NCBI GenBank assembly: GCA_007693965.1 | Contig: RECQ01000065.1 | Coordinates: 1 to 64,000 of the forward strand | DNA length: 64,000 nucleotides | Direction: 5' to 3' | From: Phycisphaeraceae bacterium | GTDB taxonomy: Bacteria; Planctomycetota; Phycisphaerae; Phycisphaerales; UBA1924 | Part shown: one piece after another, positions 2,731-40,699 of the stretch | Layout of the letters: the number at the start of each line of letters is the position of its first letter | Numbering within the stretch: the first letter of the stretch is position 1 | The notes under the pieces: model-generated | Told to the model about the DNA's origin: nothing | Seen by the model: the letters and a program-made list of their open reading frames with translations, nothing else | Database searches by the model: none | Position numbers and translations under genes: made by a program

Positions 2731-2839
2731 AGCGGCGCTGGAGAATTGAATACGGGATTCAGGAAGCGGGTGTCGTCCGGGCGGGAGCGTTGCGCCTCGC
2801 CGCGCTCGAAGCCGCGGATCCGACGCGAAGGTGGCCGGG

Positions 2840-3361: not shown

Positions 3362-3563
3362 GGCGAGAGGCGCAGGAAATGAAGAATCAGTGAAGAACCA
3401 GGGCTGCGGCTCCGCCGCGATGCGAATCCGGCTTCAGGCGGCGGGAAAATGGTGGTATCGCAGTCGATGTCTTGTTAGTCTTCTAGATGTTATATCCGCT
3501 GGCCAGGTCCGCCCTGTCGGACTTTCGGTCAGTTTTACTGATACAACATAAGGAACAACTGAT

Positions 3564-5996: not shown

Positions 5997-6258
5997 TGAG
6001 AGTCGGACGTCGGCGCTGATTCCGGCCGGGAGAGCGAATCCGAATCGCGGCGTTCCGTGCTCCTGGGTCGCAGATGTGTCTGCCCGATGTGCGGCGAGGG
6101 CCGGTACCATGCTGTTGTTGCGCGCCGGGCGGCCGCAGGAGGTCCGATCGGATGAACACCGACGCGATGATTGACCGCATGGCGCGCACGCCTGTTGCGC
6201 TCACTGCGCCGCCGGCTGTATGGGCGCCGACATGGTGCGCCGGGGAGTGGGGGGCGTG

Positions 6259-7149: not shown

Positions 7150-7900
7150 TCTCCACCGCCTCCCGCGACACATCGGCGCCGATCGCCCCGCGCCCAAGCT
7201 TCGCCGCGGCGACGAGCGTCGTGCCGGAGCCGCAGCACGGATCGAAGACGACGCCGCCCGGCGGGCAGCAGGCGCCGACGAGGAGTTCGAGCAGGGCCAG
7301 CGGCTTCTGCGTGGGCCAGCCGACGCGCTCGGTCGCCATGTTGTTGATCGAGGGGATGTCGAGGACATCCGTCGCCTTCTTCATCTCGCCCGCCATGCGC
7401 CGGCTGGTGGCGGGGACCATCGGGGGCTCGAACCAGTAGCGCTCAGGGTCGAGGCAGTAGAAGAGGATGTCGTCGTGTTTGCGTGCGAATCGCCGCGGCG
7501 AGGAGCCGCCGAGGCCGTACGCCCAGATCAGGTGGTTGACGAAGCGCTCGGCGCCGAGCAGGTCATCGAGCAGGAGGCGGACGTGGTGGCTGGTGCGCCA
7601 GTCGACGTGCAGGAGGAGGGCGCCGGTGGGTTTAAGAAGGAGGGGGATGGTCGCTTCAAGGCGCTCGCGGAGCCACGCGATGTAGCCGGCGGCGTCGGGC
7701 CAGCGGTCGGCGAAGGCGCCGGCGCGGTCGGTCTTCGACGCCCCCGTGTTGAAGGGCGGATCGGCGTAGACCAGGTCGATGGAGGCGGGCTCGAGGGCGC
7801 GGGCGGCGTCGAGCCAGTCGGCGCAGGCGAGGCGGATCGCGGGGGCGTCGGGGATGGGGCTCGTCCACTCAACTGCGTGATGCGTCTGAGCGATGGTCAC
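7115..7900 (-). CDS. Site-specific DNA methyltransferase (beta-class N4/N6 type)
   Basis: Transfers a methyl group from S-adenosylmethionine to an exocyclic amino group of adenine or cytosine in DNA. The catalytic motif DPPFNTG is at residues 47-53 and the SAM-binding motif FDPCCGSGTT at 219-228. This catalytic-first order is that of beta-class enzymes. The product is about 261 residues, compact, with a short target-recognition region. It resembles the enzyme encoded at 8958 (shared patterns such as ERFxNxxIWAYxxGG and GxPTQKPLxxL), so the two are probably paralogues. The start is a GTG; no strong ribosome binding site is seen, and a longer Arg/Pro-rich N-terminus is formally possible. No restriction endonuclease is adjacent, so it is probably an orphan or housekeeping methylase. 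The 3' end overlaps the convergent gene. Confidence 0.85.
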   Translation of the reverse strand: MTIAQTHHAVEWTSPIPDAPAIRLACADWLDAARALEPASIDLVYADPPFNTGASKTDRAGAFADRWPDAAGYIAWLRERLEATIPLLLKPTGALLLHVDWRTSHHVRLLLDDLLGAERFVNHLIWAYGLGGSSPRRFARKHDDILFYCLDPERYWFEPPMVPATSRRMAGEMKKATDVLDIPSINNMATERVGWPTQKPLALLELLVGACCPPGGVVFDPCCGSGTTLVAAAKLGRGAIGADVSREAVEITRGRLASYAD

Positions 7901-22300: not shown

Positions 22301-23890
22301 ATGGATCTTGACGACATCACCGACGGGCTGCGGCGGCCGGGGGCGATTCCTGATCACTCCGGCCCTGTGGAGACGCTGCAGACCCACATTTCGGTGGTCT
22401 TTCTCGCGGGGGAGATCGTCTACAAGCTGAAGAAGCCGGTGGACATGGGGTTCCTGGACTTTTCCACCCCCGAGCGCAGGAAGCATTTCTGTGAAGAGGA
22501 AGTTCGCCTGAACCGGCGGCTGGCGCCGCATGTGTATCACGGCGTCTCGCGTATTGTGCGCACGGAATCGGGCGAGCTGCGCGTGGACGGCGCGGGAGAG
22601 ACGATCGACCATGTTGTGCGCATGCGACGGCTTCCCGCGGCGGGCATGCTGGATGAACTGCTGGATGGTCCGGGCGTCGCCGAATCGACGATCGAGGAAT
22701 TGGTGCAGATTCTCGCCCGCTTCCACGCCAAGGCGCCGGCGGGGCCGGGCGTGGATGAGCACGGGGCGCCGGAGGCGGTGCGTGAGGCGGTGGTCGGCAA
22801 TCTGGATGGATGCCGCTCCTTCGCCGCGGCGCCGGGGGAGGAAGCGGAGCGGGGCGTTCGCACAATCTCGACGCAGGCGCTCGATCATCTGCGGGCGTGG
22901 ATTGAGGATGCGATTGCGGAGCGGTCGGAACTGCTTCGCCGGCGCGTGGAGGCAGGACGGGTCCGCGAGGGGCACGGCGACCTGCACGCGGGGAACATCT
23001 GCATCACGGACGATGGGATTGTCGTCTTCGACTGCATCGAGTTCTCCAAGCCGCTGCGCTGCGGCGATGTGGCGCGGGAGCTTGCATATCTGGCGATGGA
23101 TCTGCGGGCGCGGGGCTGGCTCGATCTTGCTGATGATCTTGTGCGCATGTACGGCGAGCGCACGGGCGATCCGGAGCTGTCGGAATTGCAGCCATTGTTT
23201 CAGGCGCACTACGCCGCGGTGCGCGGGCATGTGACGTCGCTGCGCGCGGTGGATTCGTCGATCGGGGAGCGCGAGCGGGAGAAGTCTGCGACCAGCGCGC
23301 GCCGGAGCCTGTTGCAGGCGGTCGGGCTGACGCTGGCCCCGTCGCTGGTGCTGATGTGCGGCCTGCCGGCGACGGGGAAGAGCTGGCTGTCGGAGCGGAT
23401 CGCGCTGGCGCTGGGGGCTGAGCGGATCAGGAGCGATGTGGTGCGCAAGGAGATGGCGGGTCCGGAGTCTGCGGCCGCCGGGCGAGGCGGTGTGGACCAG
23501 GGGATGTATACGCCGGAGCGGATCCGACGCGTGTACGACGCGATGCTGGAGCGGGCGGGCGAGACACTCGAGCGGGGGCGGGCGGTTGTGATCGATGCGA
23601 CCTTCTCGAGCGCGCGGGAGCGGGCGCGGTTTCTCCGGCAGGCGGAGCGTCTCGGCAGGCGCGGGCTGGTCGTCCATGTGCAGTGCCCGGAAGCGGTCGT
23701 GCGCGAACGGCTGGCGCAACGCGAAGGGGATGCGGCCGAGCCGTCGGACGCGGACCTGCGCGTCTACCAGAGCGCCCGGGAGCGCTTCGAGCCGCCGGCC
23801 GAGGTCGCGGCGGAACATCTGATCGAGGTGGATGGCCGGTCGCCGGCGGAAGATGGCGCCGAGGCGACGCTGCTTCGGCTGCTCGGGTGA
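22301..23890 (+). CDS. Two-domain kinase: aminoglycoside-phosphotransferase-like plus P-loop kinase
   Basis: A 529-residue fusion. Residues about 1-330 resemble the aminoglycoside phosphotransferase fold (COG2187 type), with YKLKKPVDMGFLDFST near the N-terminus and the catalytic GHGDLHAGNICI near residue 224, then VVFDCIEFSK. From about residue 345 a separate P-loop kinase follows (Walker A CGLPATGKSW; RIRSDVVRKEM; VVIDATFSSARER), like gluconate- or zeta-toxin-type kinases. This pairing is common in bacteria but the substrates are not established. GGAAGGAA precedes the ATG. It ends 100 bases before GlgE and is read in the same direction; a role in sugar phosphorylation there is possible but unproven. 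Confidence 0.85.
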   Translation: MDLDDITDGLRRPGAIPDHSGPVETLQTHISVVFLAGEIVYKLKKPVDMGFLDFSTPERRKHFCEEEVRLNRRLAPHVYHGVSRIVRTESGELRVDGAGETIDHVVRMRRLPAAGMLDELLDGPGVAESTIEELVQILARFHAKAPAGPGVDEHGAPEAVREAVVGNLDGCRSFAAAPGEEAERGVRTISTQALDHLRAWIEDAIAERSELLRRRVEAGRVREGHGDLHAGNICITDDGIVVFDCIEFSKPLRCGDVARELAYLAMDLRARGWLDLADDLVRMYGERTGDPELSELQPLFQAHYAAVRGHVTSLRAVDSSIGEREREKSATSARRSLLQAVGLTLAPSLVLMCGLPATGKSWLSERIALALGAERIRSDVVRKEMAGPESAAAGRGGVDQGMYTPERIRRVYDAMLERAGETLERGRAVVIDATFSSARERARFLRQAERLGRRGLVVHVQCPEAVVRERLAQREGDAAEPSDADLRVYQSARERFEPPAEVAAEHLIEVDGRSPAEDGAEATLLRLLG

Positions 23891-23990
23891 GGCGGAATGG
23901 GCGTGGATGACAAGTGAAAAAACACAGGCGCCGTGTCGGCGCGTCCCGCGCGCCGCTTGACCTGTCTATCTCCTTGTCGGTACTGTGCAT

Positions 23991-26024
<2,034 letters not shown>

Positions 26025-26044
26025 ATCCCGGAGCCGCGACACCG

Positions 26045-29000
26045 ATGCCAAGATCCAAAGACACAGCGCTCCTTCCTGACGATCCGGCCTGGTACAAGGA
26101 CGCGATCATCTACCAGTTGCACATCCGCGCCTTCTGCGACAGCGACGGCGATGGCATCGGCGACTTCCGCGGCCTCACCAGCAAGCTCGACTACCTGCAG
26201 GATCTCGGCGTCACCGCGCTGTGGCTGCTGCCTTTCTACCCCTCGCCGCTGCGCGACGACGGCTATGACATCGCCGACTACATGGGCGTCAATCCCGCCT
26301 ACGGCACGATGCGCGATGTGAAGACCTTCGTGCGCGAGGCGCATCGGCGAGGCCTGCGCGTCATCACGGAGCTGGTCCTCAACCACACCTCGGACCAGCA
26401 CGCGTGGTTCCAGAAGTCGCGCAGGGCCAAACCGGGCACGAAATGGCGTGATTTCTACGTCTGGAGCGATACCACCGAGAAGTATGATGACGCCCGCATC
26501 ATCTTCAAGGACTTTGAGACCTCCAACTGGGCGTGGGATCCGGTGGCGAAGTCCTACTACTGGCACCGTTTCTACTCACATCAGCCCGACCTGAACTTCG
26601 ACAACCCCGAGGTGCAGGAGGCGATGATCAAGGTGCTGGATTACTGGCTGGACATCGGCGTCGACGGCCTGCGCCTGGACGCCGTGCCCTACCTCTACCA
26701 GCGCGAGGGCACATCCTGCGAGAATCTGCCTGAGACGCATCAGTTTCTGAAACGCCTGCGCAAGCACGTGGACGACAACTACTCCAACCGCATGCTGCTC
26801 GCGGAGGCCAATCAGTGGCCCGAGGATGTGATCGCGTATTTCGGCGAGGGCAAGGGGGATGAATGCCATATGGGCTTTCACTTCCCGCTCATGCCGCGGC
26901 TGTTCATGTCGATCCAGATGGAGGACCGTTACCCCATCATCGACATCATGCAGCAGACGCCGCCTTTGCCGGAGACGGCGCAATGGGCGATCTTTCTGCG
27001 CAATCACGATGAGCTGACGCTGGAGATGGTGACGGACGAGGAGCGGGACTACATGTACCGCGCCTATGCGCACGATCAACGGGCCCGCATCAATCTCGGC
27101 ATCCGCAGGCGCCTGGCGCCGCTGCTGGGCAACAACCGGCGCAAGATCGAGCTGATGAACGGACTGCTGCTCTCGATGCGCGGCACGCCGGTGGTTTATT
27201 ACGGCGACGAGATCGGCATGGGGGACAACATCTACCTGCGCGACCGGGACGCAGTCCGTACGCCGATGCAGTGGAGCGCCGATCGCAACGCCGGATTCTC
27301 CCGCGCCAACCCGCAGAAGCTCTTCCTGCCCGCGATCATCGATCCGGAATACCACTTTGAGACGGTGAACGTCGAGGCCCAGGAAAACAACTCGCAGTCG
27401 CTGCTGTGGTGGATGAAGCGGCTGATCCGATTGCGTCAGCGACGCAAGGTTTTCGGCCGCGGCGAGCTCGAGTTCCTTCAGCCTGAGAATCCCAAGGTGC
27501 TCTCCTTCATCCGCAAGGACACGGATGAGCACGTGCTGGTGGTGGCGAACCTGTCGCGTTTCGTGCAGTGTGTCGAGCTGGACCTGAGCGACTACAAGGG
27601 CGCCGAGCCGGTTGAGATGTTCGGGCACACCCGTTTTCCACCTATAGGCGATCTGCCCTACTTCCTCACCCTCGGCCCTCACGCGTTCTACTGGTTCGCC
27701 ATCGCGCCTGCGGGAACTCGCGCGGGCGCCGACCCCTCCGCGCCGGGCGCCGAGGACGATGAACCGCCCACCGTCACCGTCAGCGGCCAGTGGGACAACG
27801 CCCTGCGCGGCCAGGGACGTGCGGCCCTCGAAGCCGCGCTTCCGACCATGCTGCATCGCAGGCGCTGGTTCGGGGGCAAGGCGCGAACGATCCAGACGGT
27901 GGACCTGATCGACGCCGTGCCATTCTCGCTCGGCGACAGCAGCTCCTCGCCGACAACGCATCTTGTCCTGATCACTGTGATGTATGTCGAGGGCGAGCCC
28001 GAAACCTATGTCGTGCCGATCGCCTTCGCCACCGCTGAGCGCGCGGTGCAGGTGCTCAACGACATTCCGCACGCCGTCATCGCGCACATCCAGGTGAAGG
28101 GCGAGGGTGATTCGGGCGTGTTGTACGATGCGGTGTACGAGCGATCGTTCAACGAGGCGATGCTGGATGCGGTGGCCCGGCGCCGGCGTTTCAAGGGATC
28201 CTCCGGCGAAATCTCAGCGACGCCGACACGAGCCTTCTCGAAGCTCCGCGGCGGGGCGGGCGCACGGCTGGAGCCGGCCCTCCTGCGCGCCGAGCAGAGC
28301 AACACCAGCGTCATCTTCGGCGACAAGCTCATTCTCAAGCTCTTCCGCCGCGTCGCTGAGGGTGTCAACCCGGATCTTGACATCGGGCGATTTCTCACCG
28401 AGCGGACATCATTCCCGCACATGCCGCAGGTCGCGGGGTTCCTTGAGTATCAGCGCCCCCGCGAGTCTGCACGAACGCTGGCGATCATGCACGGCTACGT
28501 TCCCAACGAGGGGGACGCGTGGCGTCACGCACTGAGCGATTTGAGCCAGTATTTCGAGCGCGCGATCACGGAGGAGTCCGAGACCCCCGAGCCCCCGGAC
28601 GCATCTTCGGCGGCGGCGCTGCTCGAACTGGCTTCGAAACCGCCCTCGAAGGAGGCGTACGAGCGCATCGGCTCCTACCTGGACTCCGCGGAGCTGCTGG
28701 GCCGGCGCACGGCCAACATGCACGCAGCTCTGTGCTCGGACGACGACGACCCCGCCTTCTCCCCCGAGCGATTCACGCCGCACTACCAGCGCGGGCTGTA
28801 CCAGTCGATCCGCAACCAGACCACGCAGGCGCTCCAGCTTCTGCGGAAGCGCCAGCAGAGCATTCCCGATGACGCGGCGGAAGATGCGGGGAAGGCGCTC
28901 GGCGCCGAGAAGGCATTGCTCAAACGCATCGCAGATCTACCCAAGAATCCTATTGATGCAGTGCGCATCCGCACGCACGGGGACTACCACCTCGGGCAGG

Positions 29001-29446
29001 TGCTCTTCACGGGGCGCGACTTCGTGATCATCGACTTCGAAGGTGAGCCGGCCCGCTCGCTTTCAGAGCGACGCCTGAAGCGCCCCGCGGTGCAGGATGT
29101 CGCGGGCATGATCCGCTCATTCCATTACGCCGCACACTCGGCTCTGCACGAGCAGGAGGTGCGTGGAGAGGTGAGTCCGAGGGCGGCGCATGAGCACCGA
29201 CTCGAGAAGGACGCCCGATACTGGCATACGTGGGTCTGCGCTGCGTTCCTGCGCGGGTACCGGGAGGAATCCGGAGAAAGCGTTCACATGCCTGCAAATG
29301 AGGCGGAGTTCGCCATGCTTCTCGATGCCTACTTGCTGGAGAAAGCCGCGTATGAGCTCATGTACGAGCTCAACAACAGGCCCGCATGGGCGAGCATTCC
29401 GCTGCGGGGTCTCGTTGAGCTGGCCTCAGGCGGAGATGGAGACTGA
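26045..29446 (+). CDS. treS: Trehalose synthase-maltokinase fusion (TreS-Mak/Pep2)
   Basis: A 1133-residue bifunctional enzyme. Residues 1 to about 560 are TreS (GH13_16), interconverting trehalose and maltose: YQLHIRAFCDSDGDGIGDF, nucleophile Asp212 in GLRLDAVPYLY, LLAEANQWPED, and FLRNHDELTLEM. After an Ala/Gly/Pro linker, residues about 590-1133 are maltokinase, which phosphorylates maltose to maltose-1-phosphate: RRRWFGGKARTIQ, SNTSVIFGDKLILKLFRR, and the phosphotransfer motif RTHGDYHLGQVLF near 975-987 with IIDFEGEPARSLSERR. Such fusions are known and supply GlgE. ATG 26045 follows GGAG by 11 bases; GTG 26021, overlapping the GlgE stop, is an alternative. Confidence 0.95.
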   Translation: MPRSKDTALLPDDPAWYKDAIIYQLHIRAFCDSDGDGIGDFRGLTSKLDYLQDLGVTALWLLPFYPSPLRDDGYDIADYMGVNPAYGTMRDVKTFVREAHRRGLRVITELVLNHTSDQHAWFQKSRRAKPGTKWRDFYVWSDTTEKYDDARIIFKDFETSNWAWDPVAKSYYWHRFYSHQPDLNFDNPEVQEAMIKVLDYWLDIGVDGLRLDAVPYLYQREGTSCENLPETHQFLKRLRKHVDDNYSNRMLLAEANQWPEDVIAYFGEGKGDECHMGFHFPLMPRLFMSIQMEDRYPIIDIMQQTPPLPETAQWAIFLRNHDELTLEMVTDEERDYMYRAYAHDQRARINLGIRRRLAPLLGNNRRKIELMNGLLLSMRGTPVVYYGDEIGMGDNIYLRDRDAVRTPMQWSADRNAGFSRANPQKLFLPAIIDPEYHFETVNVEAQENNSQSLLWWMKRLIRLRQRRKVFGRGELEFLQPENPKVLSFIRKDTDEHVLVVANLSRFVQCVELDLSDYKGAEPVEMFGHTRFPPIGDLPYFLTLGPHAFYWFAIAPAGTRAGADPSAPGAEDDEPPTVTVSGQWDNALRGQGRAALEAALPTMLHRRRWFGGKARTIQTVDLIDAVPFSLGDSSSSPTTHLVLITVMYVEGEPETYVVPIAFATAERAVQVLNDIPHAVIAHIQVKGEGDSGVLYDAVYERSFNEAMLDAVARRRRFKGSSGEISATPTRAFSKLRGGAGARLEPALLRAEQSNTSVIFGDKLILKLFRRVAEGVNPDLDIGRFLTERTSFPHMPQVAGFLEYQRPRESARTLAIMHGYVPNEGDAWRHALSDLSQYFERAITEESETPEPPDASSAAALLELASKPPSKEAYERIGSYLDSAELLGRRTANMHAALCSDDDDPAFSPERFTPHYQRGLYQSIRNQTTQALQLLRKRQQSIPDDAAEDAGKALGAEKALLKRIADLPKNPIDAVRIRTHGDYHLGQVLFTGRDFVIIDFEGEPARSLSERRLKRPAVQDVAGMIRSFHYAAHSALHEQEVRGEVSPRAAHEHRLEKDARYWHTWVCAAFLRGYREESGESVHMPANEAEFAMLLDAYLLEKAAYELMYELNNRPAWASIPLRGLVELASGGDGD

Positions 29447-29448
29447 CC

Positions 29449-31590
29449 ATGTCTTCCTCCCCCATGCAGGAGCTCAATCGGCTCGCTCGGCTCTGCGGCG
29501 TGCTGACCTCCTATCACGATGCAGATGGGAATCTGCAGAGCGCTTCGCCCGAGGCGCTGCTGGCGACTTTGCGTGCGCTCGGCGAATCGCTGGAGCGCAT
29601 CGAGGATGCGGGCGATGCGCTGCACAAACACATCGAGGCGGACTGGTCCCGCACTGCGCCGCCGGTCGTGGTGGCATGGGACGGCGATGCGGCCAACATC
29701 GACCTGCGGCTGGCGGAGCGCGAGAGCGACGGCCAGGTTCGGTTCGAATTGACGATGGAGTCCGGGCAGGTGGAGCGGTGGGTGTGTGATCTTTCGCATT
29801 TTCCGGTGACAGAGGTGTTCCCGCACGGCTCGACGCCGCGGGTGACCAAGCGCGTTGTCCTGCCGGGTGGACATGAGCCGGGGCGGCATCAGCTCCGAAT
29901 CGAACTTGGCTCGGGTGAGGCGAAATCGACGCTCCTCGCCGCCCCGATGCGCATGTATGGCCCGGAGGATGATGGCGAGGAAATGACTTGGGGGCTCTTC
30001 GCGCCGCTGTACGCGCTGCGCACCACACGAGACTGGGGCGTCGGCGATCTGTCCGACTTTGAGTCCCTGGCCCGCTGGGGCGCCGGACTGGGGGCTCGTC
30101 TGTTCTCGACCTTGCCCATGCTCGCGACATTCCTGGACGAGCCCTTTGATCCAAGCCCATATGCGCCGGTGAGCAGGCTCTTCTGGAACGAGCTGTATCT
30201 CGATCTGACCCGCGCTCCTGAACTGGCGGGCAGCCCGGCGGCGCGGGCGCTGCTGGATGCGTCGGAGACCAGGGCCGAGATCGAACGGCTGCGCTCATCC
30301 ACGATGGTGGAGTATCGCGCCGTCATGCAGTTGAAGCGCCGTGTGTTGGACGAGCTGGCCTCGACCTTCTTCTCTACTGATTCCGAGAGGCGCCGCGCCC
30401 TTGAGCAGAGGCTGCGCGACCATCCGGATTGGGAGGCGTATGCCCGTTTTCGAGCGACGGTGGAGCGCCGCGGCGAGCCCTGGCGCCGCTGGCCGGAGCG
30501 GCTTCGCGACGGCGATCTGCGCCCGGGCGATTATGAGGAGAGCGCCCGCAGGCGTCATCTCTACGCGCAGTGGCTCCTGCGTGAGCAGTTGAAGCACCTC
30601 GACACATGCATCCGCGATGTGGGCGCCGAGACGTATCTCGATCTCTCCGTGGGCACGCACCCGGACGGCTTCGACGTGTGGCGCGAGCGCAGCTCCTTCT
30701 CGATGGACGCCTCCGTCGGGGCGCCCCCTGATGCGCTCTTCAGCGGCGGGCAGGACTGGGGGCTGCAGCCACTGCATCCGGAGCACAGTCGTGAGAGCGG
30801 CCATCGGCACTTCACCGACTCCATCCGGAATCACATGGCGCATGCAGGCAGGCTCAGGATTGATCATGTCATGGGGCTGCACCGCCTGTACTGGATCCCA
30901 CGCGGCATGAAGGCGACCGAAGGTGTGTACGTCCAGTATCCGGCGGAAGAGCTGTACGCAGCGCTGAGCATTGAATCGCATCGGCACAAGTGCAGCGTCG
31001 TGGGGGAGAATCTCGGGACAGTTCCGGAGTATGTGCCGGAGGCGATGTCGAAGCATCGGTTGTCGCGGCTCTACGTTGCGTTCTACGAGTCGGAGCCGTA
31101 CGGAGACACCGTGCTGAAGCCATCGTCCGCCCGGTCCGTCGCCAGCCTGAATACACATGACATGCCTACATTCGCAGGCTTCTGGCGCGGCCTCGACATC
31201 GATGACCGTCTCGAACTGGGCCTGATCGACCAGGAGGAACGCAGTTCGGAGCACGCCTCCCGTGAACACCTGCGGCATCGGCTCACGGTGTTTCTCGAGC
31301 GCGAGGGGCTGCTGCGGACTGGAGATCGCGATGAGCGTGCTATCATGTCGGCGTTGCTGACTTACCTGGGGCGTGGACGCGCCGAGGCGACACTGGTCAG
31401 CCTTGAGGACCTCTGGCTGGAGGATCAGCCGCAGAACGTGCCCGGAACGCATACGGAGCGCCCCAACTGGCGCCGCCGTTTCGCCCGCACGCTCGAGGAG
31501 GCCGGCGCCGACGGGGAGTTGGTGGAGACGCTCCGCAGGCTCGACAGCGCCCGGAGAGAGACTTTCGCAGGAAGGAGCCGCGCGACGTGA
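29449..31590 (+). CDS. malQ: 4-alpha-glucanotransferase (amylomaltase, GH77)
   Basis: Transfers segments of alpha-1,4-glucan between chains (disproportionation). The 713-residue protein has the GH77 catalytic residues: nucleophile Asp472 in LRIDHVMGL, acid/base Glu520 in [10 protein letters not shown], and the third acidic residue in [13 protein letters not shown]. The N-terminal 150 residues are a separate region, as in the longer MalQ proteins. It begins 3 bases after the TreS-maltokinase stop and overlaps GlgB by GTGA. In this cluster it can lengthen or recycle short maltodextrins, including those left by TreZ or GlgE activity. Confidence 0.93.
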
Positions 31591-33584
31591 CGCGAAAACA
31601 GATCAGGGAGAAGTCGTCACCCAGGAGGAAAGCCTCGGCCCCCACCCCGGGACCGAAGCCCGCTCAGCCCCGCGCCGTCGGCAGCCTGCTGACGGATGAC
31701 GACATCTATCTCTTTAATGAAGGCACGCACCACAAGCTCTACGACAAGCTGGGTTGCCGCCTGACGACCCAAGAGGGTGTGAAGGGCGCTCATTTCGCCG
31801 TGTGGGCGCCCAACGCCGAGCGCGTCACGGTCTTCGGCGATTTCAACGGTTGGGACAAGGGAAGTCATCGACTGCATCCGCGCGGCTCTTCCGGAATCTG
31901 GGAAGGGTTCATCGAGGGCGTGGAGCGCGGGTCGCACTACAAGTTTCACATCTCGCCGCGTGGCGGCGGGCGCTCCGTCGACAAGGCCGATCCCTTCGCC
32001 CTTTACGCCGAGAAACCGCCGCGCACCGCTTCGATCGCCTGGGATCTCGACTACGAGTGGAATGACGAAAAGTGGATGCAGGAGCGCAAGAATCGCAACG
32101 CGCTGCACACGCCGATGTCGATCTACGAGATGCATCTCGGATCATGGCGCCGTGTGGTTGAAGAGGGCGCCCGCGAGCGATCGCTCACCTACCTCGAGAT
32201 GGCGGAGAAGCTGGCCGACTATGTCGAGCGCATGGGGTTCACGCATGTGCAGTTGCTTCCCATCATGGAGCATCCCTTCTACGGGTCATGGGGATACCAG
32301 ACCACGGGATACTTCGCGCCGACCAGCCGCTACGGTCCGCCGCAGGATTTCATGACGCTGATCGATCGTTTGCATCAGCGAGGCATCGGCGTGATCCTGG
32401 ACTGGGTTCCATCGCATTTCCCGACCGATGAGCATGGCCTCGGCTGGTTCGACGGGACGCATCTCTTTGAACATGCCGATCCGCGCCAGGGATTTCACCC
32501 GGACTGGAAGAGTTACATCTTCAATTACAGCCGCAACGAGGTGCGCGGCTTCCTGCTCAGCAGCGCCATGTTCTGGATCGAGAAATACCACATCGATGCG
32601 ATCCGCGTCGATGCGGTCGCCTCGATGCTCTACCTCGACTATTCCCGCAAAGAGGGCGAGTGGATTCCCAACGAGTTCGGCGGACGAGAGAACCTCGGCG
32701 CCATCTCGTTCCTGAGACGTCTGAATGAGGACATCTACAAGAACCATCCCGGCGTGCAGACGATCGCCGAAGAGTCGACGGCGTGGCCGATGGTGTCGCG
32801 CCCGACCTATGTCGGCGGCCTCGGCTTCGGATTCAAGTGGGACATGGGCTGGATGCACGACACGTTGCTCTACATGAGCCGCGATCCCATCCACCGTCGT
32901 CATCATCACGGCGAACTCACCTTTCGGTCGGTCTACGCCTTTTCTGAAAACTTCGTCATGCCCCTCTCGCATGACGAGGTGGTGCATGGCAAGGGCTCGC
33001 TCCTCGGACGCATGCCGGGCGACGAGTGGCGCCGTTTCGCGAATCTGCGCCTGCTCCTGAGCTACATGTATACCCAGCCGGGGAAGAAGCTCATCTTCAT
33101 GGGCGGCGAGTTCGGGCAATCGCGCGAATGGCGCCATGACCACAGCCTCGACTGGGACCTGCTCGATCACCCGCCGCACGCAGGAGTGCAGCGCATGGTT
33201 GAGGAGCTGAACAGGATCTACCGCGATGAGCCGGGGCTGCACAAGCTCGATTGCGATCCCCGCGGATTCGAATGGATCGATTGTTCAGACGCCGACAACA
33301 GCGTTCTGGCATGGATTCGCAAGAGCGATCGCGAGGGAGATGAGGTCGCCATCGTCGTCAACTTCACACCGGTGCCGCGGCTGAACTACCGCGTCGGCGC
33401 CCCGCGCGACGGCGTCTGGCGCGAGATCTTCAACAGCGATTCGGAGCGCTACGGCGGTTCCGGGCAGGGCAATCACGGGGGCGTGGAAGCCTCGCCCATT
33501 GCATGCCACGGACGCAAGCACTCGCTCTGCCTCACACTGCCCCCACTCGCCGCTGTGATCCTGAAGCGGGGGGCGCCGGCCTGA
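31587..33584 (+). CDS. glgB: 1,4-alpha-glucan branching enzyme
   Basis: Introduces alpha-1,6 branches into glucan. The 665-residue protein has an N-terminal CBM48-like domain ([20 protein letters not shown] near residues 68-88), then the GH13_9 catalytic domain with [13 protein letters not shown], nucleophile Asp342 in [14 protein letters not shown], acid/base Glu395 in AEESTAWPM, and [13 protein letters not shown]. The C-terminal beta domain is complete. The start is GTG within the GTGA overlap with MalQ, and the stop overlaps the TreZ ATG (TGATG), indicating coupled translation. Confidence 0.95.
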
Positions 33585-35449
33585 TGTCGTCTCCCGATGC
33601 GCACAGCCTGGGCGCTTCGCTGCGGGATGAGAGCGTGTGCGATTTTCTTCTCTGGGCGCCGCACGGTCGGCGCGTCGAGTTGCGCCTGCACGGCGGCGCC
33701 GGTCGCGGAGTCACGATGGACCGCGATGCGGAGGGCTACCACTTCGCGCGTGTCGAAGGAGTGCAGGCCGGCGACCGCTACAGCTACGTAATCGACGGCG
33801 GCGCCCAGCGCCCTGATCCGGCCTCCCGCCTGCAGCCAGATGGCGTGCACGGACCTTCAGCGGTGATGAATCCGGACTTTCCATGGAAAGAGCAGCACTG
33901 GATCGGACTGCCTCTGGCCGAGTACGTCATCTACGAGCTGCATGTCGGCGCATTCACGGAGGATGGCACGTTCGACGCCGTGATTCCTCGCCTCGATGCG
34001 CTGCAAGACCTCGGCGTCACCGCGATCGAGCTGATGCCGATCGCCCAGTTTCCCGGCGATCGCAACTGGGGATACGACGGAGTGCAGCTTTTCGCTGCTC
34101 ACAGCGACTACGGAGGCCCCGACGGGCTGCGCCGACTGATCGACGCCTGCCACGCCCGCGGCCTCGCGGTCGTGCTCGATGTGGTCTACAACCATCTCGG
34201 GCCCGAGGGCAATTACCTGCGCGAGTTCGGCCCATACTTCACCGGCTCATACGCCACGCCCTGGGGCGAGGCGATCAACTTCGACAACGCCGGCAGCGAT
34301 GAGGTCAGGCGCTTCTTCATTGAAAATGCGCTCTTCTGGATCGACGATATGCGCATCGACGCCCTCCGCCTGGATGCGGTGCACGCGATCCGCGACCACA
34401 CCGCGCGAACCTTCCTGGAAGATCTGTCGGAGGCCGTGCATGAGCGCGCCGCCCGGCTCGGCCGGCGCATCCATCTCATCGCCGAGAGCTGCGACAACGA
34501 TCCACGGCTCATCATCCCGCAGGCCGACGGCGGCGTCGGGATGGACGCTGTCTGGAACGACGATTTTCACCACGCTCTCCACGCCCTGCTCACCGGCGAG
34601 CGCCAGGGCTACTACGCAGACTTCGGCCCGATCGACCATTTCGCCCGCGCCATGCGAGAAGGCTTCGTCTACACCGGACAGCGCTCGGCGTACCGGGGGC
34701 GTCGCCACGGCGCCTCGTCCAAGGGGCTCCCCGGCGAGCGGTTCGTCGTCTTCGCCCAGAATCACGACCAGGCCGGCAACCGGATGCAGGGGGAGCGGCT
34801 GAGCGGTCTGGTCTCATTCGAAGCGCAGAAGCTCGCGGCGGGCGCGACGCTGCTCGCGCCCTTCGTGCCGCTGCTCTTCATGGGTGAGGAATATGGCGAG
34901 ACGGCGCCGTTTCTCTTCTTCGTGAGCCACGGCGATGAGAGCCTGATCGAGGCGGTGCGCAAGGGGCGGCGCGAGGAATTCGCATCCTTCGGCTGGGAGG
35001 GCGCGCCGCCGGACCCGCAGGATCCGAGCACATTCCAGCGATCCCGCCTGAATCGAGCGCTGCTGGAGCATCCCCGGCACAGGATGCTGCTCGATCTGCA
35101 CCGGGAGCTGCTGCGGCTGCGCCGCGAGGTTCCGGCCCTTCGCGAGCTTCGCACCGATCGAACCGAAGTCAGCGAGCCGGAGGGCGCCCGGGCGCTGCTG
35201 GTGCGCCGGTGGGCCGATCAATGCGAGACCGTCCATATGCTCAACTTCTCCGATGAGCCCTTGGAGGCAGCGCTTCCGGGTGGATCGGATGCCGGGGGAT
35301 GGCGCCTTCTGCTCGACACTGCCGATGCGGAGTGGGGCGGACCCGGCGACGAGACCGATACAAAGATCGCAGCGTCCGCATCGGGGGACCCGTCCGTCGT
35401 ACGATCACGGCCCTGGTCCTGCACGCTGTTCATCAGGGAGGATGGATAG
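33584..35449 (+). CDS. treZ: Malto-oligosyltrehalose trehalohydrolase
   Basis: Releases trehalose from malto-oligosyltrehalose ends made by TreY. The 621-residue GH13_10 enzyme has an N-terminal CBM48-like domain (FLLWAPHGRRVELRLHGG), nucleophile Asp264 in LRLDAVHAIRDH, acid/base Glu301 in LIAESCDNDPRL, and FAQNHDQAGNRMQGERL, a TreZ-type region. The ATG overlaps the GlgB stop by one base. The order TreZ, GH57, TreY in one operon supports co-expression of the two TreYZ-pathway enzymes. Confidence 0.95.
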   Translation: MSSPDAHSLGASLRDESVCDFLLWAPHGRRVELRLHGGAGRGVTMDRDAEGYHFARVEGVQAGDRYSYVIDGGAQRPDPASRLQPDGVHGPSAVMNPDFPWKEQHWIGLPLAEYVIYELHVGAFTEDGTFDAVIPRLDALQDLGVTAIELMPIAQFPGDRNWGYDGVQLFAAHSDYGGPDGLRRLIDACHARGLAVVLDVVYNHLGPEGNYLREFGPYFTGSYATPWGEAINFDNAGSDEVRRFFIENALFWIDDMRIDALRLDAVHAIRDHTARTFLEDLSEAVHERAARLGRRIHLIAESCDNDPRLIIPQADGGVGMDAVWNDDFHHALHALLTGERQGYYADFGPIDHFARAMREGFVYTGQRSAYRGRRHGASSKGLPGERFVVFAQNHDQAGNRMQGERLSGLVSFEAQKLAAGATLLAPFVPLLFMGEEYGETAPFLFFVSHGDESLIEAVRKGRREEFASFGWEGAPPDPQDPSTFQRSRLNRALLEHPRHRMLLDLHRELLRLRREVPALRELRTDRTEVSEPEGARALLVRRWADQCETVHMLNFSDEPLEAALPGGSDAGGWRLLLDTADAEWGGPGDETDTKIAASASGDPSVVRSRPWSCTLFIREDG

Positions 35450-37876
35450 GTGAAACGCTTCGTCTGCATTCATTGTCACTTTTATCAACCGCCACGGGAG
35501 AACCCGTGGCTCGAGGCGATCGAGCTCCAGGACTCCGCGTACCCGTTCCATGACTGGAATGAGCGCATCACGGACGAGAGTTACGCCCCGAACGCGTCAT
35601 CGCGGATCCTCGGCAGCGAAGGCCGCATCGTCAAGATCACCAACAACTACTCGCGCATCAGCTTCAACTTCGGCCCCACCCTGCTCTCCTGGATGGAGCA
35701 CAAGGCGCCGGAGGTGTACCAGGCGATCATCCGCGCTGACAAGGAGAGCCAGGAGCGATTCTCCGGCCACGGCTCCGCGCTGGCCCAGGTCTACAACCAC
35801 ATGATCATGCCCCTGGCGAACATGCGAGACCGTGTGACGCAGGTCCGCTGGGGGGTCCGCGACTTCGAGTCCCGATTCGGTCGTTTCCCCGAAGGCATGT
35901 GGCTGCCCGAGACAGCCGCCGACACCAAGACGCTTGAGGTGATGGCCGAACTCGGCATTCATTACACGATTCTGGCGCCGCACCAGGCGAAGCGCATCCG
36001 GCGCATCGGAAGCGAGCACTGGGAGGATGTCTCCAATGCCAATGTCGATCCTTCGCGGGCCTACGTGGCGAATCTGCCCTCCGGCCGAAAGATACACCTG
36101 TTCTTCTATGACGGCCCAATCTCGCGGGCGGTGGCGTTCGAGCGCCTGCTCAGCAGCGGCGAATTCTTCGCCAGCCGCATCGCCGAGGCCTCCTCGCACG
36201 AGCGTGACTGGCCCCAGCTCCTGCACATCGCCACCGACGGTGAGACGTATGGCCACCACCATCGCCACGGCGATATGGCCCTGGCGTACGCGCTTGAGCA
36301 GCTTGAAACCAACGGACACGGCACGCTGACAAACTACGGGGAATACCTCGAGAAGCACCCGCCCACCCACGAGGCCGAAATCATTGACAACACTTCGTGG
36401 AGCTGCATCCACGGCGTGGAGCGATGGAAGAGCGACTGCGGTTGTCATTCCGGGATGCATCCTGAATGGAGCCAGGCATGGCGCGCCCCGCTGCGCGAAT
36501 CGCTCGACTGGCTGCGAGACAGCATCGCATCGAAGTTTGAGCACGTGGGCTCCGAGATCTTCAAGGATCCGTGGGCCGCCCGCGACGCCTATATCGGCGT
36601 GATTCTCGATCGCTCGCGTGATTCGATCGCGAGCTTCCTCGAACAGCACGCCGCGCGACATCTGGATGAAGCCGAGCGATCGCGGGCGCTCAAGCTCATG
36701 GAGCTGCAGCGCCACGCCATGCTCATGTACACGAGCTGCGGCTGGTTCTTCGACGATCTTTCCGGCATCGAGACGGTGCAGGTCATCCAGTACGCGGGAC
36801 GGGTGATCCAGCTGGCGCAGTCACTCTTCGGCGAGGATTATGAAAGTGGCTTCCTGGAGCGATTGCAGCGTGCGAGCAGCAATGTGCACGAGCAGGGGGA
36901 TGGTCGGCGCATCTATGAGCGGGCGGTGCGCCCCGCCATGGTCGATCTCACCAAGGTCGCGGCGCACTACGCCGTCAGTTCTCTCTTCGAGGAAAATACC
37001 GAAGACACGCCCACGTACTGCTATGACATCGAGCGCGAGGATTACCGCGTGGTCGAGGCCGGGCGCACGCGTCTGGCGCTGGGGCGGGTGCGCATCACAT
37101 CCAAGATCACGCTCGAATCCGAAACACTCAGTTTCGGCCTGCTCCATTTCGGAGATCACAATCTCAACGGAGGCGTCCGCAGTTTTCGCGGCGAGGAGGA
37201 GTATCAGCGGATGGTCAAGCGGGCGGAGCAGGCATTCTCCCGCGCGGATTTCCCTGAGCTGCTGCGGGTCTTCGACGCTGAATTCGGCGCCTCGACCTAC
37301 TCCCTCAAATCGCTCTTCCGTGATGAGCAGCGCAAAGTCGTCAGCAGCGTTCTTGAGTCGACACTCGAAGGCACGGAGATGATCTACCGCCAGATCTACG
37401 ACGCCCACGCCCCACTGATGCGCTTTCTCGCCGACATCGGCATGCCGCTGCCCGATGCGCTGCAGAAGCCCGCGGAGTTCGTCCTGAACACCAGCCTGAA
37501 GCGAACCATCAGCGAAGATGAATTCGATCTGGACCGCATCGCGGGGCTCCTCGACGACGCCCGAGCCCGCAACATCGCGCTCGATTCCGCAGGTCTGGCC
37601 TTCGCACTGGAAGATGCGCTGGAGCGCATGACCGACCGCCTGCTCAAGGAGCCTGACGAGATCGACCTGCTCCGAAAGCTCGACGGCGCATCCGCCCTCG
37701 CCGAGGATCTTCCCTTCGAAGTCGATCTGTGGCGCGCACAGAACGTCTGTTACGAGCTGTATCAATCTGTATACAGCCAGTATCGCAAACGCGCTGACAA
37801 CGGAGATGAACTGGCGCGGGAGTGGGTGGAGCGCTTCCGCAGTTTCGGCGCCAATCTCTCCGTCAAGGTGAAGTGA
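35450..37876 (+). CDS. Glycoside hydrolase family 57 protein with DUF3536 domain
   Basis: An 808-residue cytosolic enzyme. The GH57 N-terminal domain starts with VCIHCHFYQPPRENPWLE; the catalytic region shows GMWLPETAADTKTLE (nucleophile Glu near residue 154) and LHIATDGETYGHHHRHGDMA; the C-terminal half matches the DUF3536 extension. GH57 enzymes act on alpha-glucans (amylase, branching or pullulanase-type), but the activity of the DUF3536 branch is not established as far as I know. The GTG start follows GGGAGGATGGATAG directly at the TreZ stop. Its place between TreZ and TreY suggests action on the same glucan chains, possibly the debranching step, because no TreX/GlgX is in the operon. Confidence 0.9.
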   Translation: MKRFVCIHCHFYQPPRENPWLEAIELQDSAYPFHDWNERITDESYAPNASSRILGSEGRIVKITNNYSRISFNFGPTLLSWMEHKAPEVYQAIIRADKESQERFSGHGSALAQVYNHMIMPLANMRDRVTQVRWGVRDFESRFGRFPEGMWLPETAADTKTLEVMAELGIHYTILAPHQAKRIRRIGSEHWEDVSNANVDPSRAYVANLPSGRKIHLFFYDGPISRAVAFERLLSSGEFFASRIAEASSHERDWPQLLHIATDGETYGHHHRHGDMALAYALEQLETNGHGTLTNYGEYLEKHPPTHEAEIIDNTSWSCIHGVERWKSDCGCHSGMHPEWSQAWRAPLRESLDWLRDSIASKFEHVGSEIFKDPWAARDAYIGVILDRSRDSIASFLEQHAARHLDEAERSRALKLMELQRHAMLMYTSCGWFFDDLSGIETVQVIQYAGRVIQLAQSLFGEDYESGFLERLQRASSNVHEQGDGRRIYERAVRPAMVDLTKVAAHYAVSSLFEENTEDTPTYCYDIEREDYRVVEAGRTRLALGRVRITSKITLESETLSFGLLHFGDHNLNGGVRSFRGEEEYQRMVKRAEQAFSRADFPELLRVFDAEFGASTYSLKSLFRDEQRKVVSSVLESTLEGTEMIYRQIYDAHAPLMRFLADIGMPLPDALQKPAEFVLNTSLKRTISEDEFDLDRIAGLLDDARARNIALDSAGLAFALEDALERMTDRLLKEPDEIDLLRKLDGASALAEDLPFEVDLWRAQNVCYELYQSVYSQYRKRADNGDELAREWVERFRSFGANLSVKVK

Positions 37877-40699
37877 ATGGCGGACCGGCGATCCATCGCC
37901 TCGACCTGCCGACTGCAGCTCAACGCCGACTTCGGCTTCGAGCGGTCGCAGCGGATTGCGCCATACCTGCACGCCCTCGGCGTGAGCGCCATATACACAT
38001 CACCCATCTTCGCCGCCCGCGCCGGCAGCGGCCACGGCTACGATGTCACCGACCCGACTCGGCTCAACCCCGAACTCGGCGATGAAGAGCAGTTCCGCAC
38101 GCTTGTCAATGAGTTGCGCAGGCTCGACATGGGGCTGCTCATCGACCTGGTGCCGAATCACATGGCGGCCCATACCGAAAATCCCTGGTGGCGATCCATG
38201 CTCGAAGATGGTGAAGCCTCGGAGCATGCAATCGCCTTCGATGTCGACTGGACCGGAAGCGACAGCGATGCCGACGTCGAGCCGGGGCGCATCGTGCTGC
38301 CCATGCTCGGCGCGCCCCTGCAGGAGGTGATTGCATCAGGAGATCTGCGGCCAAAGGTCGATGAACGAGGGTTCTCGATCATGCTGCATGACCAGGACCT
38401 CCCGCTCGATATTTCGACCTGGCCGGCGATCCTGCTCGATCCGGATGGCGGCGACGTCGAAACACCAGCGCAGATCGACGAGTTGATCGAGGCCGCGAGG
38501 CTCGCGCCGGATCGCTCGCGAGAGCGCGCTTCCGAACGGGCGACGGTCAAGGAGCGGGCTCTCGCGATTCTCGGGCGCATCCTGAATGAGCGTGGCCCTG
38601 CCCGGGCGTTCATTGAGGCGCGGCTTGACGCCCTCGCCGGCGACGCCGTGCGACTCGGCGAGCTGCTTGATCGCCAGGCCTACCGCCTTGAATTCTGGCG
38701 CGATGGGCTGAAGATCATGAACTACCGGCGGTTCTTCGATGTCAGCGAGCTGGCCGGCGTGCGGGCCGAGGATGCGGAAGTCTTCGAACGGATGCACCGG
38801 CTCGCGCTCCGGCTCGTGCGCGAAGGAATAGTCGACGGTGTGCGTCTGGACCACATCGATGGCCTGCGCGACCCGTGGACCTACCTGCATCGCTTGCGTG
38901 AGCGTCTCGACTCCGACTCGCCGCGGGGTGAAGATGGCCATCGACCACCCATCTACGTCGAGAAGATTCTCTGCGGCGACGAGACGCTGCCGCAGGACTG
39001 GCCCGTCGAGGGCGCCACGGGTTATGAGTTTCTGCGCGATGTCGGAGCCGTGCTGGTCGATCCGCAGGGCATCGTCGAAATGACGGATGTCTACGCGGAG
39101 TTCACCGGCGAGGTGCGCCCGTTCGAGCCCATCGAGCATGCGAAGAAGCGGCTGGTGCTGAAGTCGCTCTTTTCGCGCGAGACGGAGGCTCTGGCGAAGG
39201 CGCTGCGCGCCATCGCCGCGGAGCCGCCAGACGCCGGAAACCTCACCGCCTCTCAGCTCGAGATCGCCATCATCGAACTCACCGCCCACCTGCCCGTCTA
39301 CCGCACCTACATCCGCGGCGCCGCCGTGACCGAACTGGACCGGTCCCGCATTCATGAGGCCGCCGCGTTGGCCCGTGAGGGCGACACGGCGCCGGATGAC
39401 GCCGCGCTCGACTTCCTCCTCGGCGCCATCCTCAATGACGACGCCAACTCGGATCGACCCCACCGTGAGGCCCGGCGAGATTTTGTGCTCCGCTGGCAGC
39501 AGCTCACCGGGCCTGCAATGGCGAAGGGACACGAAGACACGGCCCTCTACATCTACAACCCGCACCTGTGTGTGAACGATGTCGGGTGCGATCCATCCAC
39601 ACCCGACATCAGTGTGGACGAATGGCATCGCCGCATCGGCGCCCGCGCGCGGCGCTGGCCGCTGGCCATGACCACCACCTCCACCCACGACACCAAGCGG
39701 GGTGAGGATGCGCGGGCCCGCCTCGGCGCCCTCTCGGAGTTCGCCGACGAATGGTCGGAGATTCTGAAGACATGGCGAGCCATCAACGAGAAGAAGCTGA
39801 GCACGGTCAACGAACTACCAGCGCCCGGATCCAACCAGCAGATCCTGATCTACCAGACTTTGCTGGGCGTCTGGCCGATGGATGAAGCCGTCGATGAGAA
39901 CTTCATCCGGCGCGTGCAGAGGTCGATGACCAAGGCCGCCCGCGAGGCGAAGGTCTACACAAGCTGGCATAATCCGGACGAGGAGCACGAAGAGGCCCTG
40001 CGCGGTTTTCTCCACGATCTGATCACGGACACTGGCCCCGGCGGCTTCGTCGAGGCATTTCTTCCCTTCCAGCGCCGCGTCGCCTTCCGCGGCGCTGTGA
40101 ACAGTCTGTCGCAGACGCTGCTGCGCATTGCCGCCCCCGGCGTGCCAGATCTCTACCAGGGCTCAGAGCTGTGGAACCTGAGCATGGTCGATCCCGACAA
40201 CCGTCGCCCGGTGGATTACGAGCTGCGCCGTCGTCTGCTCGATTCGATCACGACTGATGCGGAGTCCGACCCCGTCGCGCTGCTGCGCAGCGTTCAGAAG
40301 AACTGGCGCGATGGCCGAATCAAGCTGCTCACGACGGTTCGAGCCCTGCATGCGCGCCGAGACCACGCCGCCCTCTTCACCGGCGGCGCCTACAGGCCGC
40401 TGCAGGTTCAGGGAGAGCGGTCCGCTCATGTCGTTTCCTTCGCGCGCAGTCTTGATACGGCCTGGGCCGTCGCCGTGGCGCCGCGACTGACGCGTCCGCT
40501 GTCGCCCGAGGGCGCCTTCCCGCTGGGGGCGGATGCCTGGGGCGACACTACGATCGAGCTGCCGGAGGGCGCCCCGACCGCATGGTTGAACGCGGTCACG
40601 GGAGAGCGGTGCGCCATCGAGACCGCCGGTGCGCCGTCAGCGTTGAAACTCGCGGACATCCTCGCGAATTTCCCCGTAGCGCTGCTCATCTCCGCATGA
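37877..40699 (+). CDS. treY: Malto-oligosyltrehalose synthase
   Basis: Converts the reducing-end alpha-1,4 bond of maltodextrin to the alpha,alpha-1,1 bond of trehalose. The 940-residue GH13_26 protein has the TreY signature STCRLQLNADFGFERSQRI at the N-terminus, then TSPIFAARAGSGHGYDVTDP, nucleophile in DGVRLDHIDGLRDPWTYL, acid/base in YVEKILCGDETLP, and TSTHDTKRGEDARAR. It starts directly after the GH57 stop and is the last gene of the seven-gene operon. No clear terminator is seen downstream before the reverse-strand tRNA. Confidence 0.95.
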   Translation: MADRRSIASTCRLQLNADFGFERSQRIAPYLHALGVSAIYTSPIFAARAGSGHGYDVTDPTRLNPELGDEEQFRTLVNELRRLDMGLLIDLVPNHMAAHTENPWWRSMLEDGEASEHAIAFDVDWTGSDSDADVEPGRIVLPMLGAPLQEVIASGDLRPKVDERGFSIMLHDQDLPLDISTWPAILLDPDGGDVETPAQIDELIEAARLAPDRSRERASERATVKERALAILGRILNERGPARAFIEARLDALAGDAVRLGELLDRQAYRLEFWRDGLKIMNYRRFFDVSELAGVRAEDAEVFERMHRLALRLVREGIVDGVRLDHIDGLRDPWTYLHRLRERLDSDSPRGEDGHRPPIYVEKILCGDETLPQDWPVEGATGYEFLRDVGAVLVDPQGIVEMTDVYAEFTGEVRPFEPIEHAKKRLVLKSLFSRETEALAKALRAIAAEPPDAGNLTASQLEIAIIELTAHLPVYRTYIRGAAVTELDRSRIHEAAALAREGDTAPDDAALDFLLGAILNDDANSDRPHREARRDFVLRWQQLTGPAMAKGHEDTALYIYNPHLCVNDVGCDPSTPDISVDEWHRRIGARARRWPLAMTTTSTHDTKRGEDARARLGALSEFADEWSEILKTWRAINEKKLSTVNELPAPGSNQQILIYQTLLGVWPMDEAVDENFIRRVQRSMTKAAREAKVYTSWHNPDEEHEEALRGFLHDLITDTGPGGFVEAFLPFQRRVAFRGAVNSLSQTLLRIAAPGVPDLYQGSELWNLSMVDPDNRRPVDYELRRRLLDSITTDAESDPVALLRSVQKNWRDGRIKLLTTVRALHARRDHAALFTGGAYRPLQVQGERSAHVVSFARSLDTAWAVAVAPRLTRPLSPEGAFPLGADAWGDTTIELPEGAPTAWLNAVTGERCAIETAGAPSALKLADILANFPVALLISA

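Follow-up and report, generated by a model that had tools for sequence, protein, structure and literature searches.

The 64,000-nucleotide window analyzed here, which spans positions 1 to 64,000 of contig RECQ01000065.1 from a Phycisphaeraceae bacterium (GenBank assembly GCA_007693965.1), contains a gene cluster encoding, in this order and all on the plus strand, GlgE, a fusion of TreS and maltokinase (TreS-Mak), MalQ, GlgB, TreZ, an enzyme of glycoside hydrolase family 57 (GH57) with a DUF3536 domain, and TreY (Table 1). The GH57/DUF3536 gene, the subject of this analysis, sits exactly between TreZ and TreY, as a first-pass annotation of the sequence had it: all three products match their profiles above the cut-offs and both junctions are spacer-free, with the TreZ stop codon ending at 35449 and the GTG start at 35450, and the DUF3536 stop codon ending at 37876 and the TreY ATG at 37877. 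TreZ itself likely starts at the ATG at 33584, which overlaps the GlgB stop codon, rather than at 33503, where the longer open reading frame begins. The cluster looks like a single, translationally coupled operon; a scan for promoters and terminators produced one promoter-like site against 2.5 expected. TreX, that is, GlgX, is the debranching enzyme of family GH13 that normally feeds TreY, and the operon includes no gene for it, in agreement with the same annotation.

The host genome, a draft of 3.48 Mb in 74 contigs that is 97.7% complete and in which absence is not proof, contains one DUF3536 gene. A genome-wide search with the GlgX/TreX profile TIGR02100 matched at four places only, all in the TreZ, GlgB, and TreS genes of the operon, with scores of 18–75 bits compared to the cut-off of 640.9 that was passed by 6 of the 14 control genomes. 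Likewise, no match in the draft was produced by GDE_C (7 of 14 controls pass) or OtsA (PF00982; 5 of 14 controls pass). Given the lack of an OtsA match, this bacterium may make most of its trehalose through TreYZ, with TreT and other routes lying outside the search, in which case TreY must obtain linear chains from somewhere. The genome has matches to GlgB and to phosphorylase (on contig C35 and near the edge of contig C4), yet none to either GlgX/TreX or GDE_C, the candidates for removal of α-1,6 branches.

The arrangement seen in the window recurs across distant lineages. Among 566 confirmed DUF3536 loci, we surveyed the best 80, ranked by similarity and hence not a random sample, using as queries the proteins of the window, two planctomycete GlgX sequences and one phosphorylase; nearly all of these records are metagenome-assembled, so that individual phylum labels may be wrong. 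In 22 of the 80 loci, TreZ precedes DUF3536 and TreY follows it, each at a distance of no more than 600 bp. These loci come from 12 named phyla, namely, Chloroflexota, Myxococcota, Thermodesulfobacteriota, Verrucomicrobiota, Nitrospirota, Thermomicrobiota, Gemmatimonadota, Actinomycetota, Omnitrophota, Elusimicrobiota, Bacteroidota, and the archaeal Thermoplasmatota, along with candidate division KSB1; one of the 22 (L044) has a split DUF3536 frame. GlgE or TreS was found in 16 of the 80 loci. GlgX was not detected beside DUF3536 in any of 132 loci (131 distinct places, given that L068 and L127 are identical DNA): in the 134 loci searched, the six best GlgX hits scored 99–108 bits and all fell within TreZ genes, whereas GlgX scored 863–960 bits in each of the five loci known to carry it. 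Thus, the consistent presence of treX in the same operons, which the first-pass annotation had named as an argument against its own proposal, was not found. Separately, one locus (L140) contains two adjacent DUF3536-like genes (2448-4949 and 4985-7330), the second of which shares just 22% identity (56 bits) with the window protein.

Four contigs give the best evidence that the product of DUF3536 reaches TreY: in each, one stop-free frame of 1821–1853 amino acids encodes both (L063 from Planctomycetota; L065, L160, and L161 from Chloroflexota; Table 1), and a short linker precedes the TreY part. In L160, TreZ is located directly upstream of the fused frame. The four fusions do not represent as many independent events, as L160 and L161 pair as sisters in the tree of TreY sequences. 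Genomes G327 and G359 (L160/L191 and L161/L193, respectively) each have, besides the TreY gene fused to DUF3536, a second TreY gene that stands alone. Three loci with long frames (L045, L075, and L148) were considered as cases of TreZ-DUF3536 or GlgB-DUF3536 fusion and rejected, as the sequence ahead of DUF3536 does not resemble either enzyme and is apparently read through out of frame; two other long frames (1549 in G321 and 1537 in G200) were not counted as fusions either, and no TreY adjoins DUF3536 in L164, the G321 locus.

In a tree of 68 DUF3536 proteins built by a quick method, where 29 of the 68 count as TreYZ context because their locus holds TreY or TreZ at any position (short contigs may be mislabeled as other), the TreYZ context requires 17 changes, at least 6 of which are forced by starred branches, which implies that this context was gained or lost several times. 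Shuffled labels required 22 changes on average, and as few as 17 in 7–10 of 500 shuffles. The TreYZ context is thus clustered and at the same time interleaved with other contexts, which probably reflects one chemistry employed in several settings.

Another line of evidence comes from two phylum samples that were not chosen by similarity, 199 genomes of Planctomycetota (the host included) and 201 genomes of Chloroflexota. In Planctomycetota, DUF3536 was found in 33 genomes (shorter or divergent matches included), TreY in 17, and both in 9; in Chloroflexota, full-length DUF3536 was found in 26, TreY in 42, and both in 13. The two co-occur above chance in each phylum (Fisher p 3e-4 and 4e-4, respectively, uncorrected for kinship). 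The Chloroflexota count retains 26 of the 65 matching genomes (full-length, at least 235 bits, plus G200 with a match split in two); the remaining 39 match weakly, mostly through relatives of about 500 amino acids, and were counted as lacking DUF3536. These mostly ~500-residue Chloroflexota proteins align only with DUF3536 profile positions ~4–153 and form a group of shorter GH57-like relatives. TreY and DUF3536 lie within 5 kb of each other in all 13 Chloroflexota genomes that have both (on opposite strands in G391) and in 7 of the 9 such Planctomycetota genomes, with separate contigs in the other two. Altogether, the 62 TreY loci of the two phyla have DUF3536 within 5 kb in 20 cases, GlgX in 17, both in none, and neither in 25 (Fisher p 5e-4); the last class takes in G195 and G161, where TreY and DUF3536 are on different contigs, and possibly some loci near contig ends. 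GlgX was scored at E ≤ 1e-50, which admits some matches under the curated cut-off (G089, G161), and the Planctomycetota tally covers matches in TreY genomes and G106.

The window protein contains a Glyco_hydro_57 domain (PF03065; residues 70-307, E 2.5e-20, 73.4 bits against a cut-off of 21.2) followed by DUF3536 (PF12055; residues 340-623, E 1.9e-122, 408.5 bits against a cut-off of 25). The strongly conserved motifs are H-x-HFYQPP (8-15), WLPE (151-154), TDGETYGHHH (262-271), WSCxHGxERWxxxCGC (317-332), and MYTSCGWFF (426-434). Two alignments were examined, one of 21 sequences (the window protein and 20 of 28 other extracted proteins) and one of 68 (the window protein and 67 of the 80 loci, omitting L041, L044, L045, L084, L086, L103, L105, L110, L112, L113, L116, L117, and L118). 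In a profile of the 68 sequences, E154 falls on the Glu of the W-x-x-E motif (WLPE in 3n8t and 5wu7, WTPE in 7e1y), and D263 falls on the Asp of the 7e1y motif ALDGENW and, with weak scores, on that of PYDTELFGH in 3n8t and 5wu7; by this alignment, E154 and D263 are the probable nucleophile and proton donor, respectively. With both residues invariant, a degenerate pseudo-enzyme was ruled out. The AlphaFold2 model (mean predicted local distance difference test, pLDDT, 92.4; predicted template modeling score, pTM, 0.90) is predicted to contain the incomplete (β/α)7 barrel and the helical bundle of GH57. Foldseek ranks 4cmr, an exo-type maltose-forming amylase, first (E 7e-13), ahead of amylopullulanase, branching enzyme, and 4-α-glucanotransferase entries; VIA-align gives Z of 26–30 to solved GH57 entries over approximately residues 1-500, a spread too narrow to pick an activity. 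Residues 498-808 are confidently predicted (pLDDT 92.5); searched alone, these 311 residues found nothing convincing in the PDB (lowest Foldseek E 0.017 and highest VIA Z 7.6, with helical proteins).

Table 1 Features of the trehalose and glucan cluster in the window, and DUF3536-TreY frames in surveyed loci
Feature	Sequence	Position	Strand	Basis
GlgE, alpha-1,4-glucan:maltose-1-phosphate maltosyltransferase	window	23985..26024	+	Pfam GlgE_dom_N_S, GLGE_C
TreS-Mak fusion, overlapping GlgE stop	window	26021..29446	+	TIGR02456 925 bits, TIGR02457 480 bits, both above cut-off
MalQ-type 4-alpha-glucanotransferase (GH77)	window	29449..31590	+	Glyco_hydro_77 E 2.8e-93; TIGR00217 264.7 bits, above cut-off
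GlgB branching enzyme (GH13)	window	31587..33584	+	PRK05402 992 bits, above cut-off
TreZ, malto-oligosyltrehalose trehalohydrolase	window	33584..35449	+	TIGR02402 743 bits, above NCBI cut-off; start assigned from sequence
GH57/DUF3536 enzyme, 808 amino acids, GTG start	window	35450..37876	+	Pfam; model pLDDT 92.4, pTM 0.90
E154 codon, putative nucleophile, motif WLPE (151-154)	window	35909..35911	+	invariant in 21/21 and 68/68; aligned with W-x-x-E of solved GH57 enzymes
D263 codon, putative proton donor, motif TDGETYGHH	window	36236..36238	+	invariant in 21/21 and 68/68; aligned with GH57 Asp
MYTSCGWFF, residues 426-434, candidate GH57 region 5	window	36725..36751	+	F433, F434 invariant; region assigned from motif
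C-terminal region, residues 498-808, beta-sheet and helical array	window	36941..37873	+	predicted model; no convincing PDB match
TreY, malto-oligosyltrehalose synthase	window	37877..40699	+	TIGR02401 908 bits, above NCBI cut-off
529-amino-acid gene just upstream of glgE	window	22301..23890	+	APH-type phosphotransferase part, AAA_33 part
Fused DUF3536-TreY frame	L063	10001..15481		
Fused DUF3536-TreY frame	L065	10001..15463		
Fused DUF3536-TreY frame	L160	8275..13809		
Fused DUF3536-TreY frame	L161	4870..10341		

The view of the first-pass annotation that the DUF3536 branch has no established activity is outdated: PoGH57 (WP_137759307.1), a DUF3536 protein from Pontibacter sp. SGAir0037, has been purified and assayed by Bax and Jurak in 2024 (PMC11206854). 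Applied after a branching enzyme, PoGH57 increased the chains with a degree of polymerization (DP) of 3–4 and decreased the branches above DP6, with the number of branches constant according to the authors, and it is not a branching enzyme (PMC11206854). The branching activity that the first-pass annotation mentioned for GH57 families can be dismissed for the window protein as well, which has HCHFY and ETYGHH in place of the fingerprints HxHLP and ELF(Y)GHW quoted in PMC11206854. In the literature searched, which leaves most subscription journals outside coverage, DUF3536 was found by name in PMC11206854 alone, and among the texts examined a locus of this kind was found in that paper only, which is no proof of absence in print.

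We lean towards the interpretation that the window gene encodes a working, retaining GH57 enzyme that would cut α-1,4 bonds and free linear chains for TreY from the glucan made by GlgE and GlgB. With E154 as nucleophile and D263 as acid/base, the enzyme would attack the longer outer chains of this glycogen-like glucan, mainly by hydrolysis with some chain transfer, and release short linear malto-oligosaccharides; TreY would form a trehalosyl unit at the reducing end of these chains and TreZ would then free trehalose, while MalQ would re-lengthen the short chains left over and TreS-Mak/GlgE could rebuild the glucan from trehalose. The DUF3536 enzyme would thus fill the supply role of TreX via a different bond. 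The first-pass suggestion that the enzyme supplies TreY, made from gene position, gains from the recurrent gene order and the fusions and is plausible through α-1,4 cutting rather than through debranching of the TreX type. For the window protein, we infer the activity, its linkage specificity on glycogen and the delivery to TreY, whereas α-1,4 trimming to DP3–4 is known for its relative PoGH57. A single activity, cutting the α-1,4 bonds of long outer chains, could fit all contexts, as it would trim or mobilize glycogen beside GlgB and MalQ, and yield short linear products, the substrate of TreY, between TreZ and TreY.

If the enzyme instead cut α-1,6 bonds, alone or along with α-1,4 bonds, as the pullulanase remark of the first-pass annotation hints, it would be a true replacement of TreX. 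The missing GlgX and GDE_C matches in the host, the presence of GH57 amylopullulanases among the closest folds, and the one-pot reaction of PoGH57 with a branching enzyme, which gave more linear chains and fewer branches, fit this scenario, and the paper describes assays of PoGH57 on neither pullulan nor glycogen (PMC11206854). We nevertheless consider it quite unlikely: the branch number was reported constant after PoGH57 treatment, GlgX is kept in many genomes with both TreY and DUF3536, and the presumed region 5, assigned from the motif, ends with F433 F434 and not with the WW that, in the available part of a GH57 survey (Martinovicova and Janecek 2018, PMC6037648), is given, not unambiguously, for amylopullulanases. 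Less probable still is a salvage role, in which a disproportionating 4-α-glucanotransferase would rebuild longer chains from the left-overs of TreY and TreZ. The Pontibacter authors do conclude 4-α-glucanotransferase activity, but the same paper also calls the activity mainly hydrolytic (PMC11206854), and the operon already has MalQ. Moreover, the lysine given for 4-α-glucanotransferases at logo position 23 in that part of PMC6037648 is replaced in all 68 proteins, by T in 45 (T266 in the window protein) and by S in 23, with the position assigned from the motif.

The interpretation as an α-1,4-cutting supplier of TreY also has to be weighed against a purely architectural function, whereby the enzyme would act together with GlgB while glycogen is being made and shorten its outer chains, and the position of the gene between TreZ and TreY would be mere co-expression. 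GlgB is located within 600 bp upstream of DUF3536 in 19 of the 80 loci and directly upstream in 8 of the 32 Planctomycetota loci, and the proposal made for the Pontibacter enzyme is that the glucan becomes denser, with shorter branches (PMC11206854). This explanation, which we regard as unlikely, leaves the TreY fusions and the closeness of the two genes in 13 of 13 Chloroflexota genomes unexplained; furthermore, both roles are compatible in one enzyme.

Besides the GlgB neighborhood, several observations weigh against supply of TreY as the function of this enzyme. None of the reference genes was found in 25 of the 80 loci (18 of them labeled Acidobacteriota, several on short contigs), and same-family relatives of the host (G002, G034, G095, and G172) have GlgB-MalQ-DUF3536 without TreY or GlgX. 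At E ≤ 1e-50, TreY is missing from 24 of the 33 Planctomycetota DUF3536 genomes, and GlgX is present elsewhere in 14 of the 22 genomes with TreY and DUF3536 (in 12 of them above the curated cut-off), compared with 30 of the 37 TreY genomes without DUF3536; among the 49 genomes behind the DUF3536 loci, a set partly overlapping the 22, GlgX passes the cut-off in 17. Hence, DUF3536 is neither confined to TreYZ nor a strict substitute for TreX. The mutual exclusion of DUF3536 and GlgX beside TreY is mostly a lineage pattern, and we claim none beyond lineage: in a TreY tree built by a quick method, all DUF3536 cases fall into a part of 43 loci, where 20 have DUF3536 and 5 have GlgX, while of the remaining 19 loci none has DUF3536 and 12 have GlgX. 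Independent pairs yielded five usable ones, too few for a test (p 0.25–1), with trait b never going the same way. Other suppliers of chains are possible in the host, the phosphorylase matches among them, and TreS itself has been reported to convert glycogen, as cited in the available part of PMC4769503. As for PoGH57, its activity is low (27.7 mU/mg on amylose and 4.2 mU/mg on maltooctadecaose); the reducing-end assays were run at 50 °C, above the optimum of 30 °C and with clear loss above 40 °C, so that the true activity may be higher (PMC11206854). The one-pot chain pattern was near that of the branching enzyme alone, no assay with glycogen, pullulan, TreY, or TreZ was found in the paper, and its authors, who use both "hydrolytic" and "4-α-glucanotransferase," favor the latter term along with a role in glycogen architecture (PMC11206854).

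A broader scenario, possible but in our estimate short of probable, is a route from glycogen to trehalose that does without TreX and extends across a dozen phyla. In this route, TreY would receive malto-oligosaccharides directly from a GH57/DUF3536 cutter, and in some species both steps would reside in one bifunctional DUF3536::TreY protein. For the feedback of GlgE-type glucan into trehalose without TreX/GlgX, there is now a specific candidate enzyme with conserved catalytic residues, whose family includes natural TreY fusions and one assayed member, which makes the question testable in vitro with few enzymes. If borne out, it would provide a physiological substrate for the GH57 clade named DUF3536 and, by extension, for the "non-specified amylases." The PoGH57 assay was already known; new here are the recurrent TreZ-DUF3536-TreY order, the lack of GlgX beside DUF3536 in the loci surveyed, the DUF3536::TreY frames, and the invariant catalytic residues.

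The clade of 170 "non-specified amylases," described in the available part of PMC6037648 as averaging 785 amino acids, with region 5 ending in FF and a single characterized member of metagenomic origin (Wang et al. 2011, as cited there), likely corresponds to the DUF3536 clade. The resemblance extends to the length, the catalytic Glu and Asp, and the FF at the end of region 5 (68 of 68 proteins, compared with the text description). Position 23 is T or S in the DUF3536 proteins, and the survey text gives threonine, serine, and alanine there jointly for three clades. The survey is not among the papers found to name DUF3536, and the correspondence is drawn from these features. PoGH57 shares with the window protein the H-x-HFY and ETYGHH motifs, and its locus also encodes GlgE, TreS, TreZ, TreY, a GH77 enzyme, and a GH13_9 branching enzyme; the Pontibacter locus differs in being a SusCD locus with the branching enzyme on the opposite strand, and the likeness is one of motifs and gene content, not of measured identity. 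Structurally, the exo-type maltose-forming amylase of Pyrococcus sp. ST04 (4cmr) aligns over 459 residues with Z 29.0, although identity is only 16–17%, the C-terminal 300 residues of the window protein are not shared, and the Z score is tied with those of other GH57 activities. At the pathway level, the system resembles TreX-TreY-TreZ in that a glucan would be converted to trehalose via TreY and TreZ, with the supply enzyme often encoded beside TreY, but here that enzyme is GH57/DUF3536 rather than GH13, the host draft has no GlgX match, and the assayed DUF3536 relative cuts α-1,4 bonds. Closest in gene content is the GlgE pathway of Pseudomonas aeruginosa, which, in the available part of PMC11046441, comprises TreS-Mak, GlgE, GlgB, TreY, TreZ, and MalQ, with no OtsA route. 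There, glgA, glgX, and malQ are found with treYZ in an operon separate from treS-pep2, glgE, and glgB, whereas in the window all of these except glgA and glgX (for glgA, a contrast between clusters only, the genome not having been searched for GlgA) are united in a single cluster, together with the DUF3536 gene.

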